From positions 1,240,001-1,304,000 of the forward strand of contig NZ_CP060398.1 of NCBI RefSeq assembly GCF_015840915.1: a stretch of 64,000 bases of DNA, written 5' to 3'. The stretch is from Synechococcus sp. CBW1002 (GTDB taxonomy: Bacteria; Cyanobacteriota; Cyanobacteriia; PCC-6307; Cyanobiaceae). Positions 48,793 through 59,139 of the stretch are shown piece after piece; the first letter of the stretch is position 1; each line of letters opens with the position of its first letter. Under the pieces are notes generated by a model. That model had not been told where the DNA came from and searched no databases. It worked only from the letters and a program-made list of their open reading frames with translations. Position numbers and translations under genes: made by a program.

Positions 48793-49797
48793 AGTCGTCG
48801 GTTGGGCCCCCAGGTGGACGGGTCAAACCGAGCGGACTTCTTTGCTGACACTGGGGGTCGCGGGGCAATCAAGCGGCCCTGAAAAGGCCGGATTCGACTC
48901 GTCAAGATTTTCCCGAATTCTATGTAATGATTCTGGTCACCTGCGTCACAGGAGCTGTAGTCAAGGCTTGAGCTGAATCTGAGAGGCTGGGAGCGGCGCT
49001 TGCCGGAAAGCCAACAGCCCACAGACAAGGAGTATTCGGATTGACTGGTATCGTGGTAAGCTGCCAAAGAGTAAATTATATGAAAGCAAAGGGGTGCCAA
49101 GAGACAGATCAGAGATTGAAGACTGTTTTGAATTTATCAAGACAAAACAGGACCAAGGGTATGACCTGATTTTCTTCCCGAATCCAGGAAACTCTGGAGA
49201 CGCAGTCATTGCATGCGCAACAATACAGCAACTTGAGAAGCGCAGGATTCGATGCACGCTTGCAAGGAGCGGTATGCAGCATAAGCCGAGTAATTACTAT
49301 ATTTATAGTGGCGGCGGTAATCTCGTTCCTTTCTATGCCGATGCCGCCAAGGTGCTGGCAAGCTTGTCAAGGCAAAAGGCGGGTTTGTGTGTGCTCCCTC
49401 ATAGCTGCTTTGGTGTCGACAGCGTCCTTCAGCTCTATGAAGGGGATCTTACGATATTTGCCAGAGAGGCCACGACTCAACACTATTTACGGAGCCTAGA
49501 TGCTCGGAATCTTACGATCAAGATAGACCATGATATTGGTTTATCCTTGGACATGGAAGACCCTCGTCTTGCAATGCCGAGAACTTTTAACGCCTTGTAT
49601 GGCAATGCAGGCAGAGGGCAGTCACTTTGTATTCTGCGAAATGATTGCGAATTCGTAGCCAATCCCTTGCTTGCAGGCAAAAATAGCATAGACATATCAA
49701 ACCTTTGGCCTAAGGGATGAGGTGGTCTGGCTTTTCTGGACAGGCCCCATCGTTAACCTCTGAGGCGGGGTACCGCCCCTGAAAGGGGCTCCCACCG

Positions 49798-50085
49798 ATG
49801 AGCAAGCGCCGCACCCACAGCCCCGAGTTCAAGGCCAGGGTCGCCATGGAGGCGATCAGTGGCCGCAAGACGATCCAGGAGATCGCCGCCGACCACGCCA
49901 TCCACCCGATCCAGGTGAGCCAGTGGAAGCGGCAGCTCCTGGACGGTGCCAGCGAGCTCTTCACCCGAGGCAAGAAGACCAAGGACAAGGAGGAGGGGCA
50001 GGCCAAGGAGGCGGAGCTGTTCCAGCAGATCGGACGGCTGCAGATGGAGCTGGAGTGGCTCAAAAAAAAGTCTCAACTGCTCTGA
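49798..50085 (+). CDS. IS3-family OrfA, 95 aa, copy A
   Basis: OrfA is a short HTH protein of the IS3 family (Tnp-8/HTH-21 type) starting MSKRRTHSPEFKARVAMEAISGRKTIQEIAADHAIHP in outline, with the recognition region IQVSQWKRQLL. A C-terminal Lys/Glu/Gln-rich leucine-zipper-like helix ends LEWLKKKSQLL. An A8 tract (50062-50069) lies at the end of the gene, where IS3 elements normally shift frame into orfB. It is identical in sequence to the copy at 51946-52233. Confidence 0.9.
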   Translation: MSKRRTHSPEFKARVAMEAISGRKTIQEIAADHAIHPIQVSQWKRQLLDGASELFTRGKKTKDKEEGQAKEAELFQQIGRLQMELEWLKKKSQLL

Positions 50086-51062
50086 TGCCCGTGAACTGCG
50101 CAAGCTGGTCGATCACGACCACCCCGAGCTCAGCATCAGCAGGCAGTGTGCGCTGCTGGGGCTGCCTCGATCCACGCTGTACTACCGGCCGACACCGGTC
50201 CGTGTATCGACGCTGCGGATCATGGCCAGGATCGATGCTCTCTACCTGGGGTCTCCTGAAAAATCCAGATCCATTGCGCCGCAGCTGGTCTCAAGCATGA
50301 GAAACCGCTAAAGTAGCCGTGAATCAGGCAATCCGTGATTGCCTTTACTCCTGATCGCTCAATATGTACCGGAGGCACAATAACGGTCAGATCTCAATCA
50401 AGGAGTTCCACCTGCCATTTGGCGGCACACTTGATCCCGAGAATCGCTGGGTTCAACTGGAGGGGCTGATCCCATGGGATGAGCTGGAAGAAACCTATGC
50501 CCCTCAATTCAGCGCCACAATTGGCGCTCCAGCCAAATCAGTGAGAATGGCCTTTGGTGCTCTCTACATCAAACAGAAGTTAGGGCTTACCGACGAAGAG
50601 ACAGTCCATCAGATCAGAGAGAACGCCTATATTCAGTTCTTTCTCGGCTTTGCGGGCTACACAGCTAAGGCACCGTTTGATGCCTCGATGATGGTGCACT
50701 TTCGCAAGCGTTTTTCTGACGAGGATCTGCGCCGTATCAACGAGCTGGTGGTGCAGCGCGGCAAAGAGATCCTTCTGGAAGCACTTGCTCAGGCAGCAGA
50801 CGATGACGACCATGATGATCGTGATTCCAGTGGAGGAGGCGCTCAGCTAGAACTTGATGCGTTGATCAAGCCTGCTGACTGGCCAGAAGGAAAGAATTGG
50901 GGCACTCTCACGATTGATGCCAGTTGCACTCCAGCCGACATCACCTATCCCAGAGACCTCAAGCTCCTCAACGAGGCTCGCACAACGACCGAGCGAGTCA
51001 TTGATGATCTGTGCAGTCAGTCATCGGGATTCAGGAGACATCGACCTTGAGGTGGGTGCCTT

Positions 51063-51970
51063 TTATTGGACAGTTCCGGCCCCTGACATCGTTAACCCAG
51101 GACGGGTGGAACATGGTTCGGCCTCAGTGTAGACCGCGTGGGGAGTTTTGCCTCCAAGGGAACTGTGAGGTCTTACATGGCAATACCGCCACAGGAAGCG
51201 GGCCAGGCTGATTTCAGCGTCCCAGCCATCGCTGTATGCCCGTAGGTAGACCTCCTCGTACTTGACAGTCCTCCACAGCCGTTCAACAAGGATGTTGTCG
51301 TAGCACCGCTTTCTGCCGGACCAGCTGATCTGGATCCGCTCCCCTTTGAGTCTGGCCACAAAGTCAGCGGACGTGAACTGACAGCCTTGATCGGAGTGGA
51401 AGATCTCTGGCCTACGGCCGCCTCCCAAGGCCATCTCCAGGGCCTCCAGACAGAACTTCGTGTCAAGGCTGTTGGAGAGCCTCCAGCTGAGCACATGCCT
51501 GGAATGGAGATCCATGATCGCCACCAGATAGAGAAACCCTTTCTGCAGAGGGATGTAGGTGATGTCGGTCGCCCAGACCTGATCCACCGACGTGACCTGC
51601 GTGAGGTCCACCAGGCAGGGGAACCGCACGGACGGATCACCTGGAACCGTCGTCCGGGGCTTCTGGTAGATCGCCCGTAATCCCATGCGCCGCATGAGGT
51701 TTCGCACTCGATCTCGGCTGATCGGGATACCATCTTGGGCCAGATAGTCCACCATCCGGCGGCTGCCGCTGCAGGGATCCTCCAGGTAGAGAGCATCGAT
51801 CCTGGCCATGATCCGCAGCGTCGATACACGGACCGGTGTCGGCCGGTAGTACAGCGTGGATCGAGGCAGCCCCAGCAGCGCACACTGCCTGCTGATGCTG
51901 AGCTCGGGGTGGTCGTGATCGACCAGCTTGCGCAGTTCACGGGCATCAGAGCAGTTGAGACTTTTTTTTG
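51063..51970 (-). CDS. IS3-family OrfB, DDE transposase, copy B (frameshift-dependent)
   Basis: The catalytic protein of the element has a conserved region running from SLNCSDARELRKLVDHDH, through the HTH-21 part (LSISRQCALLGLPRSTLYYRP), to the rve core. The triad is Asp in WATDITYIPL, Asp in HSDQGCQFTS and Glu in NILVERLWR. It ends in LTMSGAGTVQ close to the element border. It has no credible start codon of its own. Its frame is +1 relative to orfA, and the two overlap at an A8 tract (51962-51969 on the plus strand as T8). Expression as an OrfAB fusion would need +1 or -2 slippage there. Confidence 0.85.
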
Positions 51971-52233
51971 AGCCACTCCAGCTCCATCTGCAGCCGTCCG
52001 ATCTGCTGGAACAGCTCCGCCTCCTTGGCCTGCCCCTCCTCCTTGTCCTTGGTCTTCTTGCCTCGGGTGAAGAGCTCGCTGGCACCGTCCAGGAGCTGCC
52101 GCTTCCACTGGCTCACCTGGATCGGGTGGATGGCGTGGTCGGCGGCGATCTCCTGGATCGTCTTGCGGCCACTGATCGCCTCCATGGCGACCCTGGCCTT
52201 GAACTCGGGGCTGTGGGTGCGGCGCTTGCTCAT
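51946..52233 (-). CDS. IS3-family OrfA, 95 aa, copy B
   Basis: The sequence and features are the same as the OrfA at 49798-50085: HTH at the N-terminus, then a zipper-like helix ending KKKSQLL. It is the upstream partner of the transposase at 51063-51970. Confidence 0.9.
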   Translation of the reverse strand: MSKRRTHSPEFKARVAMEAISGRKTIQEIAADHAIHPIQVSQWKRQLLDGASELFTRGKKTKDKEEGQAKEAELFQQIGRLQMELEWLKKKSQLL

Positions 52234-54249
52234 CGGTGGGAGCCCCTTTCAGGGGCGGTACCCCGCCTCAGAGGTTAACGATGGGGCCTGTCCAGAAAAG
52301 CCAGACCACCTCACCTCGCTACGACCGTGGCCTTGCTCGTGCTCATTTCCTGAGAGTGGCGAAGCAAAAACGACCACGTCGCCGCAAAGTGAAGGCTGCC
52401 ATTAAACATCAGCTTGGCTATGTGCGGCAGAATCTCAAGGCCATTGATGCTCTGATCGGCTGCGGGGCAAGGCTTTCCGAGCTTAAGAGGCATTGGTGGC
52501 AGAAGTTGTTGGCCTGCAGCGAGTTGGAGCGGCAACAGGGCCTTCTGCTCGCCTCTCAGACCAACAGCATTCCAGACCGCCTGGTGAATCTTGTGCAGAC
52601 CCATATCCGCCCAATGGTGCGAGGCAAAGCACGTGCTGCGGTGGAGTTTGGAGCCAAAATCAGTGTTTCGGTTCAAAACGGCTTTCCGTTCTTGCACCGC
52701 ATAAGCTGGAACCCCTACAACGAAGGAGAAGACCTTATCGCTCAGGCGGAAAAATACAAGCTGGATACAGGATCTTACCCAGAGCGAATCTGCGCCGACC
52801 GGATTTATATCACGGCCAAGAATAGGCATTTCTGCACGAGGAACGGTATTCGCCTCTCCGGCAAGCGATTGGGTCGCCCGCCCAAGGATCCTGATGTCAC
52901 CACTGCACACAAGCACCAGCTCCGATCTGATCAAGCTCGACGCAATGAAGTGGAAGGCGTCTTTGGCTCTGGAAAGCGCAAGTATTCCCTGGATCTGATC
53001 ATGGCTCGTCTACCAGCTGGTGCCGAATCCTCCATCTCGATGGCCTTTGTCGTGATGTGCGCGGAAAAGGTCTTGAGGCTGCTGCGCCTCTTTTTTGTCC
53101 TTCTTTTTGGGTGGATCTACAGCTTTTTTATGGCCTGGTCAGCGATCAGAGCGCCTGAGGGCATCTGCAAGCCATGCTTTTGAGATCTGGCTGACTTGAT
53201 GTCACCGCGCTTGCCAGCCTGATTAACGCGAAGCAAACGGACGAATCCGGCGCCGATGGGCCGAGAATCTTTTTCAGGAGTCCCTACCTGGAGGATCCCT
53301 GCAGCGGCAGCCGCCGGATGGTGGACTATCTGGCCCAAGATGGTATCCCGATCAGCCGAGATCGAGTGCGAAACCTCATGCGGCGCATGGGATTACGGGC
53401 GATCTACCAGAAGCCCCGGACGACGGTTCCAGGTGATCCGTCCGTGCGGTTCCCCTGCCTGGTGGACCTCACGCAGGTCACGTCGGTGGATCAGGTCTGG
53501 GCGACCGACATCACCTACATCCCTCTGCAGAAAGGGTTCCTCTATCTGGTGGCGATCATGGATCTCCATTCCAGGCATGTGCTCAGCTGGAGGCTCTCCA
53601 ACAGCCTTGACACGAAGTTCTGTCTGGAGGCCCTGGAGATGGCCTTGGGAGGCGGCCGTAGGCCAGAGATCTTCCACTCCGATCAAGGCTGTCAGTTCAC
53701 GTCCGCTGACTTTGTGGCCAGACTCAAAGGGGAGCGGATCCAGATCAGCTGGTCCGGCAGAAAGCGGTGCTACGACAACATCCTTGTTGAACGGCTGTGG
53801 AGGACTGTCAAGTACGAGGAGGTCTACCTACGGGCATACAGCGATGGCTGGGACGCTGAAATCAGCCTGGCCCGCTTCCTGTGGCGGTATTGCCATGTAA
53901 GACCTCACAGTTCCCTTGGAGGCAAAACTCCCCACGCGGTCTACACTGAGGCCGAACCATGTTCCACCCGTCCTGGGTTAACGATGTCAGGGGCCGGAAC
54001 TGTCCAATAAAAGGCACCCACCTCAGGACGGGACCTATCAGGGAAGTTGTCCGCTCGGGGTGCTGAGCTGAGCACCGAACTTGAGTGTACTGCGGGTTGA
54101 GGTTCAGGGTCGCCGTGGCCGGGGTGTCGTTGTCATCGATGGCTGTCTTTGGTCGGGGTTGGGGCGTCCGGCCCCTGTTCGCGGCTGTGTCCGATGGCGC
54201 CCACCGAGGGGCGCCATCGGACAGCCACGGGGGCCTGGATTGTTGAGGG

Positions 54250-55308
54250 TCAAGTAGCGATAGGTTGCTGCGGACGGGGATGGTTGATGCTCACAACCTG
54301 TGGCTGGCTCCAGTCACGGATGTGACGACTCCAGCGCTGCGGATTCTTCTGCCGAGCTTCTTCGTAGGTCTTCTGCCGGATGGCACAGATCCCATCGGCC
54401 TGGCCGTAGTGCCGCTGATTGGGCGTCACGTACTTGATGCCGCTGTGCCGGTGCTCAGCGTTGTACCACTCGACAAAGCCATCCACCCAGGCTTTTACCG
54501 AGAGCAGTTCCCGGAAGCGCCGTAGCGGATAACTCTGGTGGTACTTCATGGTACGGAACCATGATTCAGCGTAGGCGTTGTCGTTGCTGACGCGCGGCCT
54601 GGAGAACGAGAGCGAAACACCCAGCTCCGCCATCTTGGCCGCCAAGGCGAATGAGCGCATGGGGGCGCCATTGTCCGAGTGCAGGACCGCAGCAGTCTCC
54701 TTGTTGATTCCTTCATCGCGGCAGACGCGATCAAAGAATGCGCTGGCGAGCACGCTGCATTCGCGCTCATGCACTTCCACTCCAAGGATGCGGCGGCTCC
54801 ACACATCCATCACCATGTAGAGGTAGTAGAATTGACCCTTGACATGGCCGGGCAACAGGGTGATATCCCAGGCCAGCACTTGGTAAACTCCTGTTGCCTC
54901 CAGCACCGGGACTGGTCTTGGCTCGCGGGGAGAGCGGGCCCTGCCACGATGATTCAGCAGGCCTTCCTGCCGCATGATGCGATAGATCGTCGACTCTGAA
55001 CCCACATACATTCTCTCCTCAGCAAGAATGGCCACGATCTGAGCAGGCGCAAGATCGGCAAAGCGCGGATCATTGACGGAGTCAATCACCCGCTGCCGCT
55101 CTTTTGCCGTGAATCTGTGAGCCACTTCACGTGGGGCACCCTTGCGGCGGTCCACACTGAATCCCTGGCCGCTGATATCAAGCCCCCAGCGCCGCAGAGT
55201 GCGTGAACAGATGCCGATCAGATCAGCAACAGCCTTGATGGAAGCTCCTGCATTGAGGCCTTCATGGAGAAAGTCCATGGCTTTATTTCTCTGCTCTGAC
55301 GGAATCAG
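54250..55308 (-). CDS. IS3-like element OrfB, DDE transposase, copy B
   Basis: It is almost identical to the protein at 4225-5283 (a visible change is VDRRKG for VDHRKG). The triad residues lie in AWDITLLPG, LHSDNGAPM and DNAYAESWF. The start is CTG at 55308, overlapping the orfA stop as CTGA. It is full length and probably functional. Confidence 0.88.
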   Translation of the reverse strand: MIPSEQRNKAMDFLHEGLNAGASIKAVADLIGICSRTLRRWGLDISGQGFSVDRRKGAPREVAHRFTAKERQRVIDSVNDPRFADLAPAQIVAILAEERMYVGSESTIYRIMRQEGLLNHRGRARSPREPRPVPVLEATGVYQVLAWDITLLPGHVKGQFYYLYMVMDVWSRRILGVEVHERECSVLASAFFDRVCRDEGINKETAAVLHSDNGAPMRSFALAAKMAELGVSLSFSRPRVSNDNAYAESWFRTMKYHQSYPLRRFRELLSVKAWVDGFVEWYNAEHRHSGIKYVTPNQRHYGQADGICAIRQKTYEEARQKNPQRWSRHIRDWSQPQVVSINHPRPQQPIAT

Positions 55309-55814
55309 GACTCCTCTTCTTGCAGCCAAAGCTGATCGAGCTTTTTTGACAGCATCAGCAATGTTGCCGCCTCCGAAAGAGCTTTTTCCTTCTTCTGCAA
55401 CTCACGTTCAAGGCGCCGGATCTGGCGTGCCTGCTCCTGGTTTTTGCGCTGTAGATCCCTGTGGTCGGTCATGGTCGGCGCGCTGGGGCCATTGGCATCC
55501 TCAGCGGCCTGGCGCCAGCGGGCAAGCTGTTTGGGGTAGAGGCCCCGCTCACGGCAGTAAGCGCCGAGATCGGGGCCGCTGAGGCCTGCGGCCTGGATCA
55601 CGGCGGCCAGTTTGTCGGATGCGCCCCACTGCTCCGGCGGCTTGCTGGTGGCCGGCACCAGCTGGCCCTCTTTCTGCCACTGACTGCGCCAGTTGTAGAG
55701 GGTCTGGGTAGTGATGCCGGTGGAGCGAGCGATCTCGGCCACGCTCTCTCGGTTGGGCGGGCTCATGCGATTGCGGATCTCAGCCCGCACGGCCTGGTCA
55801 TAAATCGGTTTCAT
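55305..55814 (-). CDS. IS3-like element OrfA, copy B
   Basis: This 169-aa HTH and coiled-coil protein is the same as the one at 3719-4228. It starts MKPIYDQAVRAEIRNRMSPP and ends WLQEEES, with the stop overlapping the transposase start. Confidence 0.88.
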   Translation of the reverse strand: MKPIYDQAVRAEIRNRMSPPNRESVAEIARSTGITTQTLYNWRSQWQKEGQLVPATSKPPEQWGASDKLAAVIQAAGLSGPDLGAYCRERGLYPKQLARWRQAAEDANGPSAPTMTDHRDLQRKNQEQARQIRRLERELQKKEKALSEAATLLMLSKKLDQLWLQEEES

Positions 55815-56236
55815 GGTCCTCGGTTTGGCCCCCTAGTGGATGGGTCAGACCGAGCGGACTTCTTTCCTGACGCAGGGGGGGATTCCCCAGCAGGGGCTTT
55901 GGAGTGACGTATCTTGATGCTCCCTTGGTATTTAATTGCGTGTCGTGGTTTCTCTCGCTGCTGGCGCCCGCTGCAGTGATCCATACGGATAGATTGCATG
56001 TCGGCATCGCAGCAGCACTGCTTGGCAAAGAGGTTTATTTGTACGATAACTGCTACAAGAAGATTAGCGCCGTGTATGAATTCTCATTGAAAAATAGGCC
56101 CGGCTTGAATATTAGACTAGGTTGAGATCTTTCAGGATTTTCGGTAATGCTGGGATGGTCACTTCAGGCGGAGCTCCCTTCGGAAACGATCGATCTGGCT
56201 CTGGATAGCCTGTGTTTCGTCTTGGCGTTCCTGACA

Positions 56237-57385
56237 TCATAAGGATGAATGATTTGACTGAGATCTTGTCGCTACCTGCTTGCTGATCACTTTTTGCAGT
56301 GTCTCCAGCCAGGTACCTGCAATCTCATGTTTCGTTGCAAAAGTGTAAATACTGACTAGTTCATTTAGTTTTGCCACGTTCATCAGCTTATCTCCAAGCC
56401 TCATGATCTGCTCACCTGTAATATCCTTCTCAAAAGCCGAGGGCAGTGGCTTGCCGGCTGCGCGAAAGTTCAGGATGGTCCGAATACACTTTTCGCACAC
56501 GCAACAGTTCGCGCCTGTCTGCGGCCCTTCCCAGCAGACTCGCAGATTATTGACACACTCCAAAGTCTCTGAGATGTGCATTACTTTCTCGGTTCTTGAA
56601 AAAGCATGTCCTTCAGCCATGATGGAGAAGATATCACTAGAAAGCATGTGATCAGATATGGGATTAGAGCCCCAAGGCAGAGTCAGTGCGTCGTATCTCT
56701 CGGCACTGCTGAGTATGCCTATGGAATGACTGCCATTGAATTGATGTAATACACCAGCGAAAGCGGCTGCAAAGTTCTGCTCCCAGTCGGGCAGCGCCAG
56801 CCTTGCGTTGGTCTTGACGCAGACGAGAGGAATATTTGTTGCCGCAAGAATCTTGCGGCAACTTTTGGCGGCTTGGTCAAAAGCTGCCTGAGCCTCAAGA
56901 CGAATGTCAAATCCATGCACGAGAACGGCAGCATCAATGTTTACGTGATATTTTCCAGGGGATCGATTAACGTGCTTGAAGAGGCTGAAACAGCTATCCA
57001 CCCCTCCTGAGAAGAGAAGAACTGCTGACTGGCCAGTGTCAACCACTACTTTCTTTTCAATGTGGTCTGCATTGATATCCACGCATTGATATAAATTGGG
57101 AAACCATGAGCAAAAAACATGTTGAAACTCTTCGAGATTACGCATCAGGGATTGGCTTGCGCTTCCATGAACATAAATGTCTCTGCCGGTCTTCATGGAT
57201 GCAAAAAGAATGGCCACTATTGCAAAGTCTAAATTTGCAGTCGACTTAGAATGGCCGAAGAATTCGTAGTAGATGGAATCCCTTGAGATGGATCTGTTGT
57301 TATCGAAGCACTCGATTGTGAGATCTCTTCTCAGCACATTGCCGGATGATCTTTCGTCAAGAAATAGGTGAACACTTTTCGACAT
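56237..57385 (-). CDS. QueC-like PP-loop ATPase in a glycan locus, function unknown
   Basis: This 382-aa protein has the PP-loop pyrophosphatase motif LLFSGGVDSCFSL (residues 123-135). C-terminally it has four cysteines (284, and CCVCEKC giving 294, 297 and 300, followed by IRT). This is the spacing of the zinc site in QueC, the 7-cyano-7-deazaguanine synthase. It also has about 115 extra N-terminal residues not found in QueC. PP-loop enzymes activate carboxyl or carbonyl groups with ATP before amidation, nitrile formation or thiolation. Its neighbours are a pyruvyl transferase and a glycosyltransferase, so a sugar or lipid-linked intermediate is a possible substrate (inference). The base composition is AT-richer than the core genes, a sign of transfer. 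It is not recognised as a named family. Confidence 0.75.
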   Translation of the reverse strand: MSKSVHLFLDERSSGNVLRRDLTIECFDNNRSISRDSIYYEFFGHSKSTANLDFAIVAILFASMKTGRDIYVHGSASQSLMRNLEEFQHVFCSWFPNLYQCVDINADHIEKKVVVDTGQSAVLLFSGGVDSCFSLFKHVNRSPGKYHVNIDAAVLVHGFDIRLEAQAAFDQAAKSCRKILAATNIPLVCVKTNARLALPDWEQNFAAAFAGVLHQFNGSHSIGILSSAERYDALTLPWGSNPISDHMLSSDIFSIMAEGHAFSRTEKVMHISETLECVNNLRVCWEGPQTGANCCVCEKCIRTILNFRAAGKPLPSAFEKDITGEQIMRLGDKLMNVAKLNELVSIYTFATKHEIAGTWLETLQKVISKQVATRSQSNHSSL

Positions 57386-57621: not shown

Positions 57622-59139
57622 TCAGTGACTGCTCCAACGTTGAGAGGTCATCTTGTGTGCTTTCGCCGTTGCGGAGGCCACGACATCACTATCATTGACA
57701 GTGCTGGAAAATTTGCAGTCGAAGCTTACGACCGGATCACAGGCCGTGTAAGTTATCGCCTCTTCGTAAATTAAAAAGTCGGCAACGCACCGAGTTGGCC
57801 GATACAACTTCTTTAGATCAAGACAAGTAGAGTCGCGCAGAAAGCGATTGGCCAATCGTCGAGCAATCTTCTTCTTGATTAGATAGCCATAGGTCCCCCA
57901 GAATTCGTGCTCCCAACGGATGAAAGGGATGTCATGGTCAGCCAGCTCAAGCAGGCGTGTTAGGAAGCTTGGGTTATTTGTTCCAAGCTGAATGATCTCC
58001 CAGTCCGCGGGAAGTTGCTTGAGGAAAGCAGCCGAATTGAAGTCATCACGAAGAATGGCGTCATCTTCAAGCACAAGAAAGACTTGGTTGTTTGGACCGC
58101 TTTCGTTGGCAAGAAGTTTAAACAGCATCAAATGACTGGACAGACACGCGAGTTGAGCTGGGCGATTATATACAGGCATGTCAGTGCTAACTTGTGGCAG
58201 TGTCTCAGGCGTGATTGCTTTGAAGAAAAAGCAGTCAAGCCCCGCCTGCGCAAGTCTTGCATTGATGATCTCTTGGCGCTGAGAATTTCCTTCAATCGAA
58301 ATGCACCAAGCATGCTGTAATCCTAGCCTTTGCCATGGAGAGACAGGCTTGCCTTTGGGAGTATTTCTTTCGCCGTCAGCCCGATTGGCACCGGCAATGG
58401 CTTGCTCGTAGCGCGATAATATAGATCTCAGGTGTCTTATCACATTGGCTTGCAGTGCAGCGCCAACGGGTCGGAGCTGATCGGTATCGCCAGCGGCTTT
58501 GAGCGTTCGAAAATCAGGTCGATGATTATTGTGAGAGATGCAAAGAATCGTGTGATCTGGATCTAGCAGGACCAGTGGTAGCGTGAAGTCCTTCAGGAAA
58601 CTTTTTTCCTCGCCGGAGGTGACACTGTCGGAGCAGCGCGTTTGCAGCAATAGTTCCCGCTTGAAGGCCCAGGTGGCCGCCGTAGCCTGGTTGCTGCCAA
58701 ACGGGCCAGCCAGCCACAGCTCTCGCTCCGGCAGGAACAGCACTGGCAGCTGATTGCAGCCCGCCATCAAGCCATCGCCTCCGCTGAGCCGTTGCACCGC
58801 ATGGGCCACCCGGCCGGTCGGGTAATAATCAGTATCGTTCATCACCACGATGATCTCGCCGCTGCAGAATCCATGGCTGAGATTGCGCACCTGGTCCAAC
58901 GGCAGCCTCTGCTTCAGGCGCTCATAGCGAATCGTGAGACCCTGGTGGGGATCCGGCTGAAAAGCTTGTGTGCTGTCGTTGCTGTTGTCTACGATCACCC
59001 ATTCCAGCAGTTCGCGAGGATAGGTCTGTGTCAAGATCTGCTGCTGCAAGAGCGGCAGCAGTCCGGCAGGACCATGCGTGACCGTGCAGAGACTCACGCG
59101 TGGAAGCTGCACTGGATGCTGCGAGGCAGACTGATTCAC
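57622..59139 (-). CDS. Two-domain glycosyltransferase: GT2-type plus GT25-type
   Basis: The 505-aa protein has an N-terminal GT-A domain (about residues 12-240) with VSLCTVTHGPAGLLPLLQQQ, WVIVDNSNDST and the DxD-like MNDTDYYP. Its C-terminal domain (about 275-480) is of the GT25 LPS type: HAWCISIEGNSQRQEIINARL, LACLSSHLMLFKLL, VFLVLEDDAIL with the catalytic-metal EDD, and GTYGYLIKKKIARRL. Each domain would transfer one sugar, so the fusion may add two residues in sequence to a surface glycan. The N-terminal half has host-like GC, the C-terminal half is AT-richer, which hints at a chimeric origin. The 236 bp down to the PP-loop gene hold no convincing gene. Confidence 0.8.
   Translation of the reverse strand: MNQSASQHPVQLPRVSLCTVTHGPAGLLPLLQQQILTQTYPRELLEWVIVDNSNDSTQAFQPDPHQGLTIRYERLKQRLPLDQVRNLSHGFCSGEIIVVMNDTDYYPTGRVAHAVQRLSGGDGLMAGCNQLPVLFLPERELWLAGPFGSNQATAATWAFKRELLLQTRCSDSVTSGEEKSFLKDFTLPLVLLDPDHTILCISHNNHRPDFRTLKAAGDTDQLRPVGAALQANVIRHLRSILSRYEQAIAGANRADGERNTPKGKPVSPWQRLGLQHAWCISIEGNSQRQEIINARLAQAGLDCFFFKAITPETLPQVSTDMPVYNRPAQLACLSSHLMLFKLLANESGPNNQVFLVLEDDAILRDDFNSAAFLKQLPADWEIIQLGTNNPSFLTRLLELADHDIPFIRWEHEFWGTYGYLIKKKIARRLANRFLRDSTCLDLKKLYRPTRCVADFLIYEEAITYTACDPVVSFDCKFSSTVNDSDVVASATAKAHKMTSQRWSSH

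Follow-up and report, generated by a model that had tools for sequence, protein, structure and literature searches.

What does a QueC-like enzyme do among glycan genes, and is it QueC at all? The question is raised by a minus-strand open reading frame (57385 to 56237, ATG start) in the window analysed here, a stretch of 64,000 nucleotides of the Synechococcus sp. CBW1002 genome. The frame encodes a PP-loop protein (P0001; Table 1) that resembles QueC and QatC. A sequence-only reading had set it apart from ordinary queC and proposed that it could activate a carboxyl group on a sugar, lipid or peptide for amidation or nitrile formation. QueC relatives are increasingly recognised as reusable ligases, serving queuosine, type IV CBASS and Qat. 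PP-loop enzymes convert ATP to AMP and pyrophosphate while a carboxylate (or an amide oxygen) is adenylated, and a zinc site completes the fold of enzymes such as these. The explanation that we favour, tentatively and somewhat short of an even chance, is an adenylating PP-loop ligase that would modify the carboxylate of a surface-glycan precursor.

Table 1. Features of the PP-loop gene and its surroundings in the window
Feature	Position	Strand	Basis
QueC/QatC-like PP-loop protein, 382 residues	56237..57385	-	Open reading frame, AlphaFold2 model and structural matches
N-terminal extension, residues 1-116	57038..57385	-	AlphaFold2 model of the domain alone, pLDDT 94.7
PP-loop SGGVDS, residues 126-131	56993..57010	-	G128 and D130 invariant in 91 members
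Cys4 site C-x9-C-x2-C-x2-C, residues 284-300, presumed zinc	56486..56536	-	Four cysteines invariant in 91 members
C-terminal extension of three helices, residues 324-380	56246..56416	-	DSSP on the model
Broken PF04230 gene, 5' piece	48983..49717	+	Profile positions 30-201, E 2.8e-18
Same PF04230 gene, 3' piece	55871..56122	+	Profile positions 260-316, E 1.4e-15
Insertion-sequence cluster between the PF04230 pieces, several transposase frames, some broken	49720..55870		List of open reading frames
GT2-like and GT25 glycosyltransferase, upstream of the PP-loop gene	57622..59139	-	PF01755 E 1.5e-16, PF00535 E 0.0027

Sequence features and distribution of the family

The protein carries SGGxDS on a Rossmann-like core, as in the PP-loop ATP pyrophosphatase superfamily. 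Some 117 residues lie ahead of the PP-loop domain, and the cysteine site reads C284-x9-C294-x2-C297-x2-C300. G128, D130, R264, C284, N293, C294, C297 and C300 are invariant in an alignment of 91 homologues, and the PP-loop and Cys4 features are thus not there by chance; the sequence-only reading, which had picked out both the SGGVDS motif and a QueC-like tail, was right on these points. The QueC-type arrangement of the four cysteines and their invariance suggest a zinc site, the metal being presumed from QueC and QatC. A fifth cysteine is seen within the site at alignment position 295 (NCC instead of NCG) in 19 of the 91 members, the window protein among them.

Searches of Pfam, NCBIfam, PADLOC and PDB sequences with the window protein gave no significant match. 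The best matches below significance were to TilS (E 0.008), DUF6395 (E 0.039; 14.4 bits against a gathering score of 25) and QueC (PF06508; E 0.069; 13.1 bits against 22). DUF6395 (PF19932) is a family of no known function, matched at the cysteine region. Neither Pfam nor NCBIfam provided a strong match to a relevant family for any of 97 members; DUF6395 was matched weakly by 32 of them (best 1.3e-5), QueC by 15 (best 2.6e-4) and the LarE model by three. A search for DUF6395 across 146 genomes gave no signal and was uninformative.

In a scan of GTDB contigs, related stretches numbered at least 511; the phyla represented include Pseudomonadota, cyanobacteria, Planctomycetota, Bacteroidota, Chloroflexota and Acidobacteriota. 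The Synechococcus genome has one copy. When 119 relatives were searched with the single protein, only two besides the source genome contained a homologue; both share no more than the class with it, and none was found in the same taxonomic family. Homologues are present on plasmids of Gloeothece, Azospirillum, Gemmobacter, Priestia, Nostoc and the archaeon Halorientalis, and there were no relatives on viral contigs (single-protein scan) or in phages (tblastn). Tandem family copies occur in nine of 71 loci, with two to four copies at L048, L025, L028, L045, L073, L089, L010 and L117, as if each acted on another residue.

Our literature search found no paper describing a QueC-like protein in polysaccharide loci, and the 2026 survey of PF06508 mentions WbpG as the sole glycan-locus relative of such a type (PMC13329287). 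The family is widespread, is without a name and is distinct from queC.

Predicted structure

The AlphaFold2 model, built from 91 sequences, has a mean pLDDT of 94.9 and a pTM of 0.93. Its structural matches span many PP-loop enzymes, led by QatC (9y01; Z 16.1, r.m.s.d. 5.5, 306 residues aligned, residues 1-372 of the model), QueC (3bl5; Z 13.1, r.m.s.d. 3.1 Å, 178 residues aligned, core only) and Cap9 (Z 11.9 over 168 residues). Foldseek alone returned only Cap9 (E 0.02), QatC and QueC emerging in a second structural comparison. Since the match to QatC is nearly full length and that to QueC covers the core, the N-terminal domain belongs to an architecture like that of QatC. In our model the core is QueC-like, as had been expected from sequence, and over its full length the protein resembles QatC. 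The extra N-terminal domain that the sequence-only reading had emphasised is there, but it is not unique, as the full-length architecture of QatC is comparable.

Modelled alone, this domain has the order strand-strand-strand-helix-strand-helix-strand, as in RNase H. RNase H-like folds match it only at Z of about 5.7, so the likeness is one of topology, with kinship undemonstrated. Its alignment with the N-terminal domain of QatC by hhalign gave no signal, and the resemblance of the two domains is therefore a structural one. A weak profile link joins the family as a whole to QueC (77% probability) and to QatC (83%), in each case over short stretches.

Thiolases, LarE and TilS rank below Cap9 in the structural list, with Z below 10. 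Their presence there, together with the three members that touch the LarE model, is what a sulfur transferase (thiolation) in the manner of LarE, ThiI or TtuA has in its favour. We consider this very improbable, because the structural similarity is lower than to QatC, QueC and Cap9 and the invariant QueC-type cysteines suggest a zinc site.

The likeness to QatC, a component of the qatABCD anti-phage defence, covers the N-terminal extension, the QueC-like core, the Cys4 site and the three C-terminal helices. The cysteine spacing is nine residues in the window protein versus about 19 in QatC (PMC13329287). The NCBIfam model of QatC, NF041925, did not match the window protein and is touched by only two of the 97 members (E about 0.005). 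Six cyanobacterial loci (L155-L160) encode proteins that match this model below its cut-off, with E of about 1e-41 to 1e-47; we found no open reading frame of 300-520 residues with SGG-x-D[ST] there, and these proteins are possibly another QatC-like family.

Cap9 of type IV CBASS has the core fold in common with the window protein, but it is a minimal QueC core of about 185 residues without extensions, encoded beside a CD-NTase (PMC13329287), whereas the window protein has extensions at both ends. The Tyr/Asp deazaguanine site of Cap9 has no counterpart in the form of a conserved Y-x-D.

Cap9 modifies a protein, as QatC supposedly does, and the window protein might likewise act on a protein partner, for example its PF04230 neighbour. 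The fold is in keeping with this, as are the N- and C-terminal extensions: in QatC the extensions are required and hold QatB, which is bound by the three C-terminal helices, while the reaction itself is unresolved (PMC13279940). We nevertheless regard protein modification as quite improbable, for a conserved N-terminal glycine was not found in the PF04230 neighbours and the genes nearby include no small conserved partner that recurs.

The locus in the window

The PP-loop gene was described from sequence as lying with a pyruvyl transferase and a glycosyltransferase gene. A GT2/GT25 gene and a PF04230 (polysaccharide pyruvyl transferase) gene are indeed present, but the latter is broken. Its 5' piece lies about 6.5 kb from the PP-loop frame and its 3' piece ends 115 bp away. 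The two pieces flank the insertion sequences, from which we conclude that the gene was formerly convergent with the PP-loop gene at a separation of 115 bp. In the tree, Panacagrimonas (L016) is a near relative; there the PF04230 gene is intact, and it too is convergent with the family gene and next to it. Within the insertion-sequence cluster, the frames at 49798-50085 and 51946-52233 have identical 95-residue products.

The G+C content is 46.5% for the PP-loop gene and 48-50% for the PF04230 pieces, compared with 64% for the window; the low value of the PP-loop gene fits lateral acquisition. Given the broken PF04230 gene, the window probably contains a glycan locus that was acquired laterally and is now decaying.

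Glycan genes across the family

In 36 of 71 non-redundant loci the family gene has a PF04230 gene no more than 6 kb away, where about 0.6% would be expected, a rate derived from 61 PF04230 matches in 24 carrier genomes (about 130 Mb) and expressed per 13-kb stretch. Among loci that extend 4 kb or more in each direction the count is 30 of 51, and in 21 of all 71 the two genes are immediately adjacent. PF04230 is also the commonest family among 117 first and second operon neighbours (27), followed by GT2 (nine), asparagine-synthase-like proteins (seven), Wzx-type flippases (six), ABC proteins (four) and GT25 (three). NeuB, cytidylyltransferase (CMP-transferase) and ABC-2 exporters are found in some loci; those with NeuB and the CMP-transferase provide a carboxylate-bearing sugar, which supports our best explanation. 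GT2, GT4 and flippase genes are still frequent where PF04230 is missing. The linkage to PF04230 is scattered over the tree, requires 14 or more changes on well-supported branches, and so arose or was kept repeatedly. It could also be a mere reflection of general glycan islands. Not all PF04230 members have proven pyruvyl transferase activity.

The recurrent polysaccharide neighbourhood on which the sequence-only reading had staked its proposal thus holds for much of the family but not throughout: 24 of the 71 loci, several of them on short contigs, lack both PF04230 and a clustered glycan gene. In Pragia fontium, whose genome encodes no PF04230 protein, the family gene is outside any recognisable glycan locus, in an operon of small-molecule genes. 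The member there (L019, 4463-13219) is accompanied by a DapA-like aldolase, a glyoxalase-like protein, a redoxin and an OYE flavoenzyme, with a 2-isopropylmalate synthase near the operon; this is perhaps a small-molecule pathway that uses the same enzyme type.

Two further arrangements were observed. An asparagine-synthase-like gene of about 600 codons is directly upstream of the family member at L014, L017, L018, L022, L041, L042 and L055, which places two PP-loop enzymes side by side. On the Gloeothece plasmids (L005 and L006) the pair of PF04230 gene and family member adjoins non-ribosomal peptide synthetase genes.

Relation to QueC and deazaguanine chemistry

QueC and the window protein share the core fold, SGGxDS and the tail C-x8/9-C-x2-C-x2-C, the spacing being one residue apart (C-x8 in QueC, C-x9 here), but QueC lacks the roughly 115 additional N-terminal residues. 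A genuine QueC is encoded elsewhere in the genome (E 1e-69). QueC is missing from 14 of 49 carrier genomes, and 11 of these 14 also have no PTPS-family protein (QueD). Seven of the 11 are isolate genomes (Jannaschia, Aestuariivirga, Alginatibacterium, Pelagibius, Pelagibacterium, Paracoccus and Mesorhizobium), in which carboxy-deazaguanine should not be made de novo, a salvage or unrecognised route being possible. Carriers without QueC and QueD make carboxy-deazaguanine unlikely as the general substrate of the family. These observations uphold the earlier view that the gene is not an ordinary queC.

The QueC motifs YxQxHxxE, VPxRN and YPDC, as defined in PMC13329287, are absent from the conserved columns of the 91 members. 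The canonical deazapurine-binding Tyr/Asp pair, whose absence the sequence-only reading had named as support, is likewise not conserved: Y-x-D occurs in the corresponding stretch of eight of the 91, the equivalence of individual residues being uncertain because the mapping of the deazaguanine Tyr and Asp by hhalign is ambiguous.

Two alternatives can be weighed on this evidence. A diverged QueC or QatC with deazaguanine chemistry or an anti-phage role would agree with the nearest folds, which are QatC, QueC and Cap9, but we give it very little weight in view of the separate QueC, the carriers devoid of QueC and QueD, the unconserved QueC motifs, the scarcity of matches to the QatC model and the blank PADLOC search. 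The neighbours are, moreover, glycan genes with no qat genes seen: qatA, qatB and qatD do not figure among the top 25 Pfam families of the neighbours, qatB having no Pfam model. Nitrile formation in two ATP-dependent steps, as by QueC, ToyM and PesC, seems equally remote, since the catalytic motifs of QueC are not conserved and we know of no bacterial surface glycan that bears a nitrile. In its favour, QueC has the same core fold and reaches its nitrile via an amide (PMC13060819; PMC13329287).

Taken together, we are highly confident that the family is not QueC, is QatC-like and is mostly linked to glycan genes.

A possible reaction

The favoured ligase would be an ATP-pyrophosphatase of the QueC/QatC type turned, in most of the family, to surface-glycan assembly. 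An acyl-adenylate (or its amide equivalent) would form with release of pyrophosphate. The activated acid or acetamido group may reside on a glycan precursor or a substituent of it; candidates, named with less assurance, are a uronic acid, a nonulosonate or a pyruvate ketal, the last perhaps added by the PF04230 partner. AMP might then be displaced by ammonia or an amine, with an amide as the most likely product, again with less assurance. Amide formation is one among several reactions of PP-loop enzymes, and we treat amidation specifically as plausible but still doubtful. The likely role of the N- and C-terminal extensions is to bind a partner protein or a lipid-linked glycan.

Sugar-modifying PP-loop zinc enzymes are already known. 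The N-acetyl sugar amidotransferases (NASATs) WbpG, WbuX and PseA combine a PP-loop with a tetracysteine zinc site, act on sugars and belong to glycan loci (PMC10607449). By analogy, the family might turn a sugar's N-acetyl group into an acetamidino group, adenylating the amide oxygen before ammonia is added. The inclusion of WbpG in the survey of the QueC superfamily (PMC13329287) and an hhalign probability of 87% between the family and NASATs, over the PP-loop half only, lend this some credit. The cysteines are placed differently, however: in NASATs they precede the PP-loop (35, 38, 70 and 73 versus a PP-loop at 113 in L169), whereas in the window family they follow it, and the model TIGR03573 was matched by none of the 97 members. 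We therefore think an acetamidino product improbable.

A broader proposal is that the QueC/QatC architecture has a third branch, which pairs with PF04230 proteins to make a surface-glycan modification of a kind that has yet to be described; a sugar acid or pyruvate ketal might, for instance, be turned into an amide, a nitrile or an amine-linked form. We consider this rather unlikely as a whole.

Implications

The QatC layout would extend beyond defence if a large branch, as yet without a name, carries it in glycan loci, and the family may help to explain QatC. The PP-loop protein and the PF04230 protein offer a concrete pair with which to seek a new glycan modification. If our reading is true, bacteria would have, in carboxyl (or amide) activation on a surface sugar, a means of altering their coats that has not been described before.
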